A DNA stretch of 34,467 nucleotides, taken from Flavobacteriaceae bacterium. GTDB taxonomy: Bacteria; Bacteroidota; Bacteroidia; Flavobacteriales; Flavobacteriaceae. The position numbers and the translations under genes are program-made. The notes beneath the pieces are model-generated. The model worked only from the letters and a program-made list of their open reading frames with translations, made no database searches and was not told the DNA's origin. Location: positions 1-34,467 of the forward strand of contig DAOUPU010000002.1 of NCBI GenBank assembly GCA_030625995.1, written 5' to 3'. Shown one piece after another: positions 229 to 13,290 of the stretch (the stretch's first letter is position 1; every line of letters starts with the position of its first letter).

Positions 229-1005
229 CTAATCTATATTCTTTAAAATCATAAGTGTTTTCTCTTGAAAAAAGAAGTATAGTTTACCATCTATAAAATC
301 GTAGGCTATTTTTTTATTGCTCAAAGTTTTAGAAATCTGATTGCTTATTTCAAGGTTTGGGCAGGCCATCCTTGTACCGGCTAAATTCCCAATAATAATA
401 GACCCCTTCTCATAGCGAAATCCTCCCATAATATTATTGCAGCCATCATGCCCGGAAATTCTATTTTCTATCACATTGATTTCAATATATGGCTGGCCTT
501 TTATAAATTCTATTTCTTTTAAATTTTTGTTATCAATACCCTCAATAGCCCATATGTTGTGTAATCTATAATCGGGAACGAAATTACCGCACCCATTTAG
601 TCTGATATAATTTTTCTCTTTAATTTTTTTATAGTCGATATTTACTTTATAGTCAAATATAATGTCAGACATGGTATCCGAACAATCTTGACGTTGAACT
701 TGAATAATTATTTCGTGGGTATCATTAATGGATCTGTATCGTGTAACCTCTGCATCCATAGCTTTTATTCCTTTCACAGAAGGAACAATAATAGTAAGCC
801 CATCTAGGTTTTTAAATTGAAACTCGTTTTCAAAATCCATATCTAAAGACCAAAAGGGTTCATTCCCAAGAGCATAGAAATCAATGCCTTTACTAGCCTT
901 TGTTTGAGCAATCTTATTAATATTATTATCACCAGTATTTTGAGCCATGCATTTAAAATTGATAAAAATTATTATAAAAGTGCTGAATATTAAAGTATTA
1001 TACAT
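229..1005 (-). CDS. META (HslJ-like) domain-containing secreted/lipoprotein-like protein
   Basis: ORF with N-terminal hydrophobic signal; C-terminal 'ISGHDGCNNIMGGFRYEKGSIIIGNLAGTRMACPN' typical of META domain; N-terminal half COG3650-like (GNEPFWSLDM). Confidence 0.8.
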   Translation of the reverse strand: MYNTLIFSTFIIIFINFKCMAQNTGDNNINKIAQTKASKGIDFYALGNEPFWSLDMDFENEFQFKNLDGLTIIVPSVKGIKAMDAEVTRYRSINDTHEIIIQVQRQDCSDTMSDIIFDYKVNIDYKKIKEKNYIRLNGCGNFVPDYRLHNIWAIEGIDNKNLKEIEFIKGQPYIEINVIENRISGHDGCNNIMGGFRYEKGSIIIGNLAGTRMACPNLEISNQISKTLSNKKIAYDFIDGKLYFFFQEKTLMILKNID

Positions 1006-1099
1006 GGTATCGAATGTAATAATTATTATTGACCTATAATTTAACTATAAAAATAATATAAAATGACTAACTTTAAAGCACTTCGCAATTGCTTTTAAT

Positions 1100-11209: not shown

Positions 11210-12008
11210 AATACAAGAGACTGTAACTTTTCTTAAGAAAATGGGATTGGCAACGCCTGATTATGGTATTGTATTGGGAACCGGACTAGGTAGCTTGGTT
11301 AATATAATCGATATTATCCGAAAGATACCCTATGCTGAAATACCAAACTTCCCAATTTCTACTGTAAAAGGTCATTCGGGTACGCTTATATATGGAAATA
11401 TCGGCGGTAAAAAGGTTGTTGCCATGCAAGGCAGATTTCATATTTATGAAGGATGGGACATGAAACAAGTAACGTTTCCAATACGTGTAATGCAATTTTT
11501 AGGGGTGCAGAAGCTAATTGTATCTAATGCCTCCGGCGGAGTAAATCCCGATTTTAAAGTAGGTGATATTATGGTCATAACAGATCATATCAATATGATG
11601 CCAAGCCATCCCCTGCAAGGTAAGAATGATGATAGACTTGGACCTCGTTTTGTGGACATGCACGAACCATATAGTCTTGAAATGATCGCTAAGTTTGAGA
11701 AGATAGCAAAGGAATTTAACATTGAAATTCAGAAGGGGGTATATTTGGCCTTACAAGGACCAACTTTCGAAACACCCGCAGAATATAAAATGGTTGAATT
11801 AATGGGAGCAGATGCGGTAGGAATGAGCACAGTGCCCGAAGTAATTGTAGCGAAGCATATGGGAATGTCTTGCTTTGGATTGTCTGTAATTACAGATTTG
11901 GGAATTGAAGGTCATGTGGAAGCAGTTAGCCACGAAGCTGTCCAACTTGCTGCGAAATCATCCGAAAAAGTGATAAGTAAATTAGTTCAAGAATTTATTT
12001 TGAGATAG
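11199..12008 (+). CDS. punA: Purine-nucleoside phosphorylase
   Basis: VLGTGLGSL, GHSGTLIYG, SNASGGVNPDF, GPTFETPAEYKM motifs. Confidence 0.95.
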   Translation: MYDKIQETVTFLKKMGLATPDYGIVLGTGLGSLVNIIDIIRKIPYAEIPNFPISTVKGHSGTLIYGNIGGKKVVAMQGRFHIYEGWDMKQVTFPIRVMQFLGVQKLIVSNASGGVNPDFKVGDIMVITDHINMMPSHPLQGKNDDRLGPRFVDMHEPYSLEMIAKFEKIAKEFNIEIQKGVYLALQGPTFETPAEYKMVELMGADAVGMSTVPEVIVAKHMGMSCFGLSVITDLGIEGHVEAVSHEAVQLAAKSSEKVISKLVQEFILR

Positions 12009-12014
12009 TTATAT

Positions 12015-12045
12015 AAAAAAAGCACCCCTAAAGAATAGGGGTGCT
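12015..12045 (-). terminator. Intrinsic terminator of sRNA copy A
   Basis: 10-bp perfect stem (12021-12030 / 12036-12045), 5-nt loop, T-tract on minus strand. Confidence 0.85.
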
Positions 12046-12102
12046 AGCTTACTAACTCAAAATTAATCATAATTGAAGTAAAACTATTGGGAATTATACT
12101 TC
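12015..12102 (-). ncRNA. Predicted small RNA copy A (~88 nt), minus strand
   Basis: Sigma-54-like promoter 12130-12114; conserved body starting at GAAGTATAATTCCC; ends in perfect 10-bp hairpin AGCACCCCTA/TAGGGGTGCT plus T7 on the minus strand. Confidence 0.72.
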
Positions 12103-12113
12103 GTTTAGAATAT

Positions 12114-12130
12114 TACAAAACTCGTGCCAA
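12114..12130 (-). promoter_or_regulatory. Sigma-54-like -24/-12 promoter copy A: TTGGCACGAGTTTTGTA
   Basis: TGGCACG-N4-TTGT with canonical spacing; -12 GC replaced by GT. Confidence 0.65.
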
Positions 12131-12146
12131 AGAAAACAACCTATCG

Positions 12147-12161
12147 TTAATAAATTGTTAA
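12147..12161 (-). promoter_or_regulatory. Candidate upstream activator site copy A, TTAACAATTTATTAA (near-palindrome)
   Basis: Identical 15-mer at identical 16-nt distance from promoter in both copies, intervening sequence diverged. Confidence 0.4.
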
Positions 12162-12182
12162 ATATGTTATAATTATCTTAAT

Positions 12183-12211
12183 AAAAAAGCACCTCCAAAA
12201 ATAGAGGTGCT
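12183..12211 (-). terminator. Intrinsic terminator of sRNA copy B
   Basis: 8 Watson-Crick bp (12188-12195 / 12204-12211), extended by G-U and A-U pairs on the minus-strand RNA; T6 tract. Confidence 0.85.
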
Positions 12212-12268
12212 AGCTTACTAACTCAAAATTAATCATAATTGAAGTAAAAGTATTGGGAATTAAACTTC
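12183..12268 (-). ncRNA. Predicted small RNA copy B (~86 nt), minus strand
   Basis: Sigma-54-like promoter 12296-12280; conserved body starting at GAAGTTTAATTCCC; ends in hairpin AGCACCTCTA/TGGAGGTGCT plus T6 on the minus strand. Confidence 0.72.
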
Positions 12269-12279
12269 AATAACATTAT

Positions 12280-12296
12280 AACAAAATTCGTGCCAA
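12280..12296 (-). promoter_or_regulatory. Sigma-54-like -24/-12 promoter copy B: TTGGCACGAATTTTGTT
   Basis: TGGCACG-N4-TTGT with canonical spacing. Confidence 0.65.
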
Positions 12297-12312
12297 ATAA
12301 GTTCAGTTATTA

Positions 12313-12327
12313 TTAATAAATTGTTAA
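12313..12327 (-). promoter_or_regulatory. Candidate upstream activator site copy B, TTAACAATTTATTAA (near-palindrome)
   Basis: See copy A. Confidence 0.4.
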
Positions 12328-12336
12328 TTATCTTAA

Positions 12337-13206
12337 TTATACTAAGTGGTTATGTGCGCGATAAGAAGATCTTACCAAAGCTCCACTTTCTACATGTTTA
12401 AAACCTAAATCCAACCCAATCTTTTTGTATAGTGCAAATTGATCAGGTGTAATAAACTCATAAACAGGTAAATGTTTTTTACTTGGTTGTAAATATTGTC
12501 CCAGGGTTATAACATCTACTTTTGCCTTTCTCAGGTCGTGCAAAGTTTCAATTACTTCTTCTTCTTTTTCTCCCAGGCCAAGCATAATACCTGATTTTGT
12601 TCTTTTTTGACCACTATCCTTTATATAGGTCAAGACATCCAAGCTTCTATCGTATTTAGCTTGTATCCTTACCTCACGTGTAAGTCTTCTTACGGTCTCT
12701 AAATTATGCGATATGATCTCAGGAGCTACTTCAATCAGCCTGTCAATATTATTACGATCTCCTCGAAAGTCGGGTATTAAGGTTTCTAAGGTAGTATTTG
12801 GATTAGTTCTACGAATAGCCTCTACGGTTTCTGCCCAAATAATCGACCCTCCATCTTTAAGATCATCTCTGTCAACAGAAGTGATAACAGCATGTTTAAT
12901 TTTCATCAAATAAATAGAACGCGCTACTTTTTCGGGTTCATCCCATTCAACAGTTTCAGGTTTTCCGGTTTTAACCCCGCAAAAACCACAAGAACGTGTA
13001 CATATATTACCCAATATCATAAATGTAGCGGTACCTTCTCCCCAACACTCACCCATATTTGGACAACTACCGCTTGTGCAGATAGTATTGAGTTTGTATT
13101 TATCAACAATACCTCTTAATTCCGTATATTTTTTTCCCACAGGCAGTTTTACCCTAAGCCATTCAGGTTTTTTGACACGAGTTGTTAAAGTGGACTCTTC
13201 CGACAT
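12337..13206 (-). CDS. lipA: Lipoyl synthase (start chosen at [11 protein letters not shown]; track start 13254)
   Basis: [13 protein letters not shown] and [10 protein letters not shown] cysteine motifs. Confidence 0.97.
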
Positions 13207-13290
13207 ATTTCTGATATTTAAGCCTGCAAATTTACGAATAAAAGAATAAATCATTTCTTCTAGATTAAGAGAAAATTATAACACTGAGTC

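Follow-up and report, generated by a model that had tools for sequence, protein, structure and literature searches.

The window analysed here is a stretch of 34,467 nucleotides from a Flavobacteriaceae bacterium (assembly GCA_030625995.1, contig DAOUPU010000002.1). Between lipA (12337-13254, minus strand) and punA, which is encoded on the plus strand and ends at 12008, the minus strand carries two units lying head-to-tail. Each opens with a direct repeat, followed by a promoter (TTGGCACGARTTTTGT) and a 12-nt spacer that has diverged; next come a body with GAAGTWTAATTCCCAATA at its start, a core identical in both copies, and lastly a terminator. The body is non-coding, approximately 86 nt long, and starts 12 nt past a -24/-12 promoter. 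The copies are 88% identical over 118 bases (BLAST), and the duplicated unit extends upstream beyond the promoter, taking in the TTAAC-N6-TTAA(C/T) direct repeat. A tandem pair at this position had been proposed in the first-pass annotation, and inspection of the sequence confirmed both units on the minus strand.

All features are given on the minus strand. In copy B, the direct repeat TTAAC-AATTTA-TTAAT (12312-12327), a candidate activator site from its sequence and from family statistics, precedes a sigma-54 promoter TTGGCACGAATTTTGT (12281-12296), assigned from its sequence and the promoters of the family. The predicted sRNA body with its terminator spans 12182-12268 and is supported by a match of 54.0 bits to the R1 model, by folding (z -4.1) and by covariation. 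It contains a 5' hairpin (12241-12268) and a core (12211-12239), both counterparts of those of copy A, and an intrinsic terminator hairpin (12188-12211) followed by a T-tract, located by a terminator scan. Copy A shows on the same grounds the repeat TTAAC-AATTTA-TTAAC (12146-12161), the sigma-54 promoter TTGGCACGAGTTTTGT (12115-12130), and a predicted body with terminator at 12018-12102 (61.7 bits to R1; fold z -4.2). Its 5' hairpin GAAGTATAATTCCCAATAGTTTTACTTC has a C-rich loop (12075-12102) and was found by folding, with helices 1 and 2 covarying. The invariant single-stranded core ATTATGATTAATTTTGAGTTAGTAAGCTA (12045-12073), identified from alignment columns and pairing tests, is the proposed pairing region, and the terminator hairpin (12021-12045) again runs into a T-tract. 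The body starts claimed earlier, 12102 in copy A and 12268 in copy B, were borne out. Comparison of the copies also verified that they align without gaps from promoter to hairpin and that the 12 nt separating promoter from body are the diverged segment. The terminators held as well: the stems at 12045-12021 and 12211-12188 are the sole terminator-like sites of the region, where 0.1 would be expected from shuffled sequence. Transcripts of lipA may also end at the terminator of copy B.

Both bodies fold better than their shuffled versions (z -4.2 for copy A, -4.1 for copy B), and the two terminators differ by a compensatory change from C-G to U-A. In an alignment of 58 copies made with a covariance model, 22 of the 23 base pairs of the 5' hairpin and terminator had changes on both sides, a result reached by none of 500 shuffles. 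Paired cells amounted to 96.3%, as against 84% with partners shuffled and at most 56% with partners slid; as the alignment was fitted to the structure, these counts lean towards it, and the gap is still large. Covariation is strong in body and terminator alike, in agreement with the earlier view of them as one RNA. The core is nearly invariant across copies, partly because the copies were retrieved with a 20-mer from it, and the hairpin loops vary from copy to copy. Folding and covariation show three parts in the predicted RNA: the 5' hairpin, whose loop is C-rich, the invariant single-stranded core (AUUAUGAUUAAUUUUGAGUUAGUAAGCUA), and the terminator. At the level of the predicted transcript it is short, structured, non-coding, and terminator-ended, as expected for a base-pairing sRNA. 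The body does hold a short reading frame (ATGATTAATTTTGAGTTAGTAAGCTAG, MINFELVS), which is probably not functional.

A 20-base piece of the core was scanned in 85,462 species genomes and occurred on 41 contigs, nearly all from Flavobacteriaceae and many with two or three copies. In the homologues, body and terminator stay together, and most of them also retain the sigma-54 promoter, as the first reading required. On the evidence of sequence, the homologues in Lutimonas and neighbouring Flavobacteriaceae settle that these units belong to a real RNA gene family. The covariance-model search that had been suggested was performed with a model built from four relatives against 400 Flavobacteriaceae genomes. 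Strong matches do exist, but they are confined to five genomes of two genera, that of the window and one neighbouring genus; the weaker matches are mixed with chance terminators. The assembly of the window, 61.6% complete and in 257 contigs, holds two copies only of this RNA.

No Rfam family was matched at threshold in the window or in the homologous loci. This includes Flavo-1, which was also absent from the permissive list for 11950-12400, so that the RNA is not the Flavo-1 motif with which a comparison had been advised. The permissive matches (GcvB, JA04, and others) were rejected as being below threshold and following the terminator. Synteny with lipA is not a family-wide feature either: in most of 30 loci another gene, often GAPDH-like, follows lipA, and the RNA is found there only in the genus of the window, together with an independent-looking sigma-54 unit in G002, a genome of another genus. 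This last unit (L115), like L067, is a different one, with TTTGGCACGATACTTGTG, a hairpin, GTTTGGTTAATAA, and a terminator. A general terminator element was rejected as well. In 1.6 Mb of genome G025, 158 intergenic terminators were preceded by stop-codon-like words and not by GTTAGT, and the single clear case with GTTAGT was an sRNA copy.

The sigma-54 promoter was recognised in 44 of the 58 aligned copies, and in 42 the TGGCAY-N5-TTG(C) element ends 12-14 nt before the body. Random intergenic sequence from G025 has such a motif at that position in 0.03% of cases. Most homologues thus retain the promoter at a fixed distance from the body, which bears out the sigma-54 reading. The GT in place of GC at -12 had been regarded as its weak point; it is no defect, since the base after TTG varies among the family promoters (of 39, 25 have C, seven A, and seven T). 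A check of the window's genome for rpoN found the gene (E 3e-52), and several strong sigma-54 activators (AAA+) are encoded there as well. Of the 44 sigma-54 copies, 31 have a WTAAY-N6-WTAAY direct repeat 15-17 bp upstream of the -24 element (TGG); anywhere in the sequence, it was present in one of the 14 copies without this promoter and in 29 of 880 shuffles. In the 1.6-Mb sample of G025, the top two matches to the family promoter matrix were the sRNA promoters, a ranking that is partly circular because the matrix was built from the family itself. A weaker match in that genome (contig 1, about 1090818) is a sigma-54-like promoter, TGGTATTTATTTTGA, 41 nt before the start of htpG, which agrees with sigma-54 control of chaperones.

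Of the 14 remaining copies, nine fit a pattern that is sigma-A-like and includes a -7 element of the TAnnTTTG type; five fit neither pattern. Relatives often have three copies, and many of the 14 are the third, punA-proximal one, which usually has a sigma-A-like promoter. Such third copies, with a sigma-A-like and no sigma-54 promoter, include L017, L090, L104, and L080; L017 and L090, counted among those fitting neither pattern, have a TAAATT(T/C)G-like end, and their body call starts too early for the pattern. The genome of the window is without the punA-proximal copy. The earlier suggestion of independently regulated sRNAs finds support in the relatives, since a sigma-A-like promoter usually replaces the sigma-54 one in their third copy. 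Short units at L079, L106, L088, and L110 were also seen to lack a 5' hairpin; in these, GATTAATTTTGAGTTAGTAAG comes very soon after a sigma-A-like -7 element (TATCTTTG, TATATTTG) and precedes a terminator. Taken together, the sequence evidence makes it very likely that the locus holds two small RNA genes in tandem under sigma-54 control; the search for rpoN, the homologues, and the covariation all came out in favour of the sRNA interpretation.

A second RNA of like layout was revealed by the pattern TTGGCAY-N5-TTG-N60-90-GTTAGTWAG, which matched in 33 of 151 Flavobacteriaceae genomes, in none with a scrambled -24 element, and in two when read backwards. The sole match in G025 belongs to the family of the window, and most other matches belong to the second RNA. 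This RNA has a sigma-54 promoter, a hairpin, GUUAGUUAG, and a terminator, and is distributed over many Flavobacteriaceae genera; its loop carries GAGUGGUUAC and is followed by UUUUGGUUGGUUAGUUAG (GGUUGGUUAGUUAG) ahead of the terminator. A model built from ten training loci without the promoter columns gave matches at E<=1e-4 in 140 of 400 genomes, the weakest of which may be due to chance. Tandem sets of two to four occur in several genomes, G350 having four tandem matches. In all 30 best loci, some of which overlap the ten training loci, the sigma-54 promoter is present, at a distance of 37-40 nt to the loop. The second family (loci L144-L173 and L331-L360) has a gene resembling D-Ala-D-Ala dipeptidase close by in 24 of 30 loci inspected. 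The second RNA was not found in the genomes that hold the RNA of the window, nor in Flavobacterium gawalongense, a single genome that carries little weight. Layout and the GUUAGU element are common to both RNAs. In addition, the genome of the window has on contig C97 (about 960-1060, minus strand) a unit with a hairpin, GATTAATTTTGAGTTAGATTAGGTTAG, and a terminator, and no recognisable sigma-54 promoter.

The sequence of the core suggests where the RNA may act. Gene starts and signal peptides were assigned by simple rules, and pairing of the core was compared with that of shuffles. A looser test in G025, which took several starts per gene and the region from -40 to +12, showed an excess that was marginal, with 2-7 of 60 shuffles equally high. 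A narrower one (-35 to +5, one start per gene, with signal-peptide-giving starts preferred) covered 1413 translation starts. The mean energy of the top 20 was -16.6 versus -15.0, half of these 20 had signal peptides versus 23%, and 13 genes with signal peptides paired at or below -14 kcal/mol versus 3.5; none of 151 shuffles reached any of these values. Genes without a signal peptide also showed some excess, and a mild excess appeared on the antisense strand of the starts. Inside the coding regions of G025 no excess was detected, and a core shortened by removal of AUUAUGA gave a weak signal. In 0.48 Mb of the window's genome, 23 signal-peptide genes paired at or below -10 versus 11.2, with one of 200 shuffles as high; ranking tests there pointed in the same direction and were mostly not significant (16-40 of 200 shuffles). 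The narrower test was picked after the looser one had been seen, and the evidence that the core pairs with translation starts, clearest for genes with signal peptides, is therefore only suggestive. Candidate sites include a lipoprotein start on contig C153 of the window's genome (-18.7 kcal/mol), skp of Lutimonas halocynthiae (-21.2 kcal/mol), and a SusC-like gene in G150 (-13.9 kcal/mol), examples that are selected in that they were found by similarity to the core. The skp site is retained in most of the Lutimonas-clade relatives tested and is absent from the window's own genome, on which ground skp was rejected as a universal target.

Other functions may be attributed to these units. The closeness of copy B, which starts right after lipA on the same strand, could mean that both are the 3' end of the lipA mRNA, either as two spare terminators or as sources of 3'-UTR-derived RNAs. 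There is no terminator-like site before copy B, and lipA read-through RNA would therefore end there. However, 44 of 58 copies have sigma-54 promoters at a fixed spacing, other contigs carry further single copies, with several in one genome, and a covarying 5' hairpin would be needless for termination, so that units dependent on lipA are very unlikely. Slightly less credit still can be given to a tiny mRNA whose core encodes the eight-residue peptide MINFELVS. ATG with this peptide and a stop is present in 29 of 58 copies, but about one third of the copies have no ATG as first codon and several frames continue to 20-30 residues. Moreover, third codon positions are as invariant as the rest, as constraint at the RNA level predicts, an observation partly biased by the 20-mer retrieval. 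The micropeptide reading is consequently disfavoured.

Two further proposals accept the small RNA and assign it a different action. The core might be the site of an RNA-binding protein, the RNA being a protein sponge or chaperone-dependent, with specificity located in the C-rich hairpin loop. This would fit the recurrence of GUUAGUWAG with different 5' hairpins (in the family of the window, in the second family, and in the C97 unit), the presence in the C97 unit of a core variant, GAGUUAGAUUAGGUUAG, without a recognisable sigma-54 promoter, and the difference in loops between copies. RbpB, an RRM-1 protein of Bacteroides, binds members of a multicopy sRNA family where they are single-stranded (PMC11697453). 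The complementarity of the core nevertheless appears, in G025, to be specific to translation starts and above that of shuffles, and a protein site as the main function appears rather unlikely, while deserving serious attention. An RNA that activates instead of repressing, for instance by opening inhibitory leader structures, is improbable. It has a precedent in the same bacterial family: in F. psychrophilum, protease mRNAs drop when Rfp18 is deleted (PMC9723704); the sites predicted here, however, cover the leader close to the start codon, where pairing usually blocks initiation.

Stress-induced antisense repression is inferred to be the most likely action. Each tandem copy downstream of lipA would be a paralogous gene for a trans-acting small RNA of about 86 nt, transcribed to its own terminator by sigma-54 RNA polymerase with an enhancer-binding activator, from a start some 12 nt below the -12 element; the TTAAC-N6-TTAAC repeat is perhaps bound by a further factor. 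The core would pair with A/U-rich leader sequence immediately before start codons and block translation, preferentially of mRNAs for lipoproteins, TonB-dependent receptors, and other exported proteins. The sigma-54 motif of F. psychrophilum controls GroESL, DnaK, GrpE-DnaJ, Lon, envelope stress, gliding, and exported proteins (PMC9723704). As sigma-54 runs protein-quality-control and envelope-stress genes in this related flavobacterium, the RNA would ease the burden of exported proteins when the envelope or proteostasis is under stress. The chances that it acts by pairing with the starts of exported-protein mRNAs are judged to be about even, and its relatives across this large marine bacterial family probably reduce the synthesis of surface and secreted proteins. 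A broader idea is more tentative and, on balance, doubtful: that both RNAs are two branches of one family-wide, multicopy sigma-54 "anti-leader" system, whose core is complementary to the A/U-rich translation-start leader of the phylum, which globally damps exported-protein synthesis under stress, and whose extra sigma-A-driven copy provides a basal level.

Few outputs of sigma-54 are known in Bacteroidota. In a search limited to open-access literature, no paper describing the RNA of the window was found, and no sigma-54-dependent small RNA of Bacteroidota was found in that literature either. The family described here is recognisable, widespread, and structured, has a built-in promoter signature, and comes with models for finding its members. 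It offers a candidate site for an activator and a specific hypothesis of pairing that can be tested, and it connects the sigma-54 stress response with control of exported proteins, the class that dominates the way these marine polymer degraders live. The exchange of sigma-54 for sigma-A-like promoters in adjacent copies is a natural experiment in promoter replacement.

Several known systems share parts of this arrangement. The Qrr sRNAs of Vibrio act in quorum sensing with LuxO and Hfq. They are likewise multiple, paralogous, sigma-54-dependent small RNAs that involve an activator, end in a terminator, and act in trans, the latter being predicted here. They differ in phylum and locus and are unrelated in sequence (no match at threshold to Qrr in Rfam was obtained for the window or the homologous loci), and some copies here have a sigma-A-like promoter. 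RybB and MicA, controlled by sigma-E, and CpxQ are envelope-stress sRNAs of enterobacteria. The logic proposed here resembles theirs, a stress sigma factor or sensor leading to sRNAs that pair near the starts of envelope mRNAs; sigma factor, sequence, and phylum are different, and the pairing is a prediction in the present case. The Flavo-1 motif, which we take to be Rfam RF01705, is also a flavobacterial RNA motif, but has no Rfam match to the RNA of the window or related loci. FopS and GibS, which work with RbpB in Bacteroides, are multicopy sRNAs of Bacteroidota that also combine a conserved, single-stranded seed with a terminator; unlike the RNA described here, they have Sigma-ABfr promoters, a single-stranded 5' end, and another sequence (PMC11697453). 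No Rfam match to them was found in the window or homologous loci, assuming that their model is in release 15. Rfp18 of F. psychrophilum, compared by its description, is a conserved structured sRNA from the same bacterial family and, in the accessible part of the report, is not listed as a sigma-54 (SM4) transcript (PMC9723704). A further point of similarity is the sigma-54 regulon of that same species, which joins chaperones, Lon, and exported proteins (PMC9723704).
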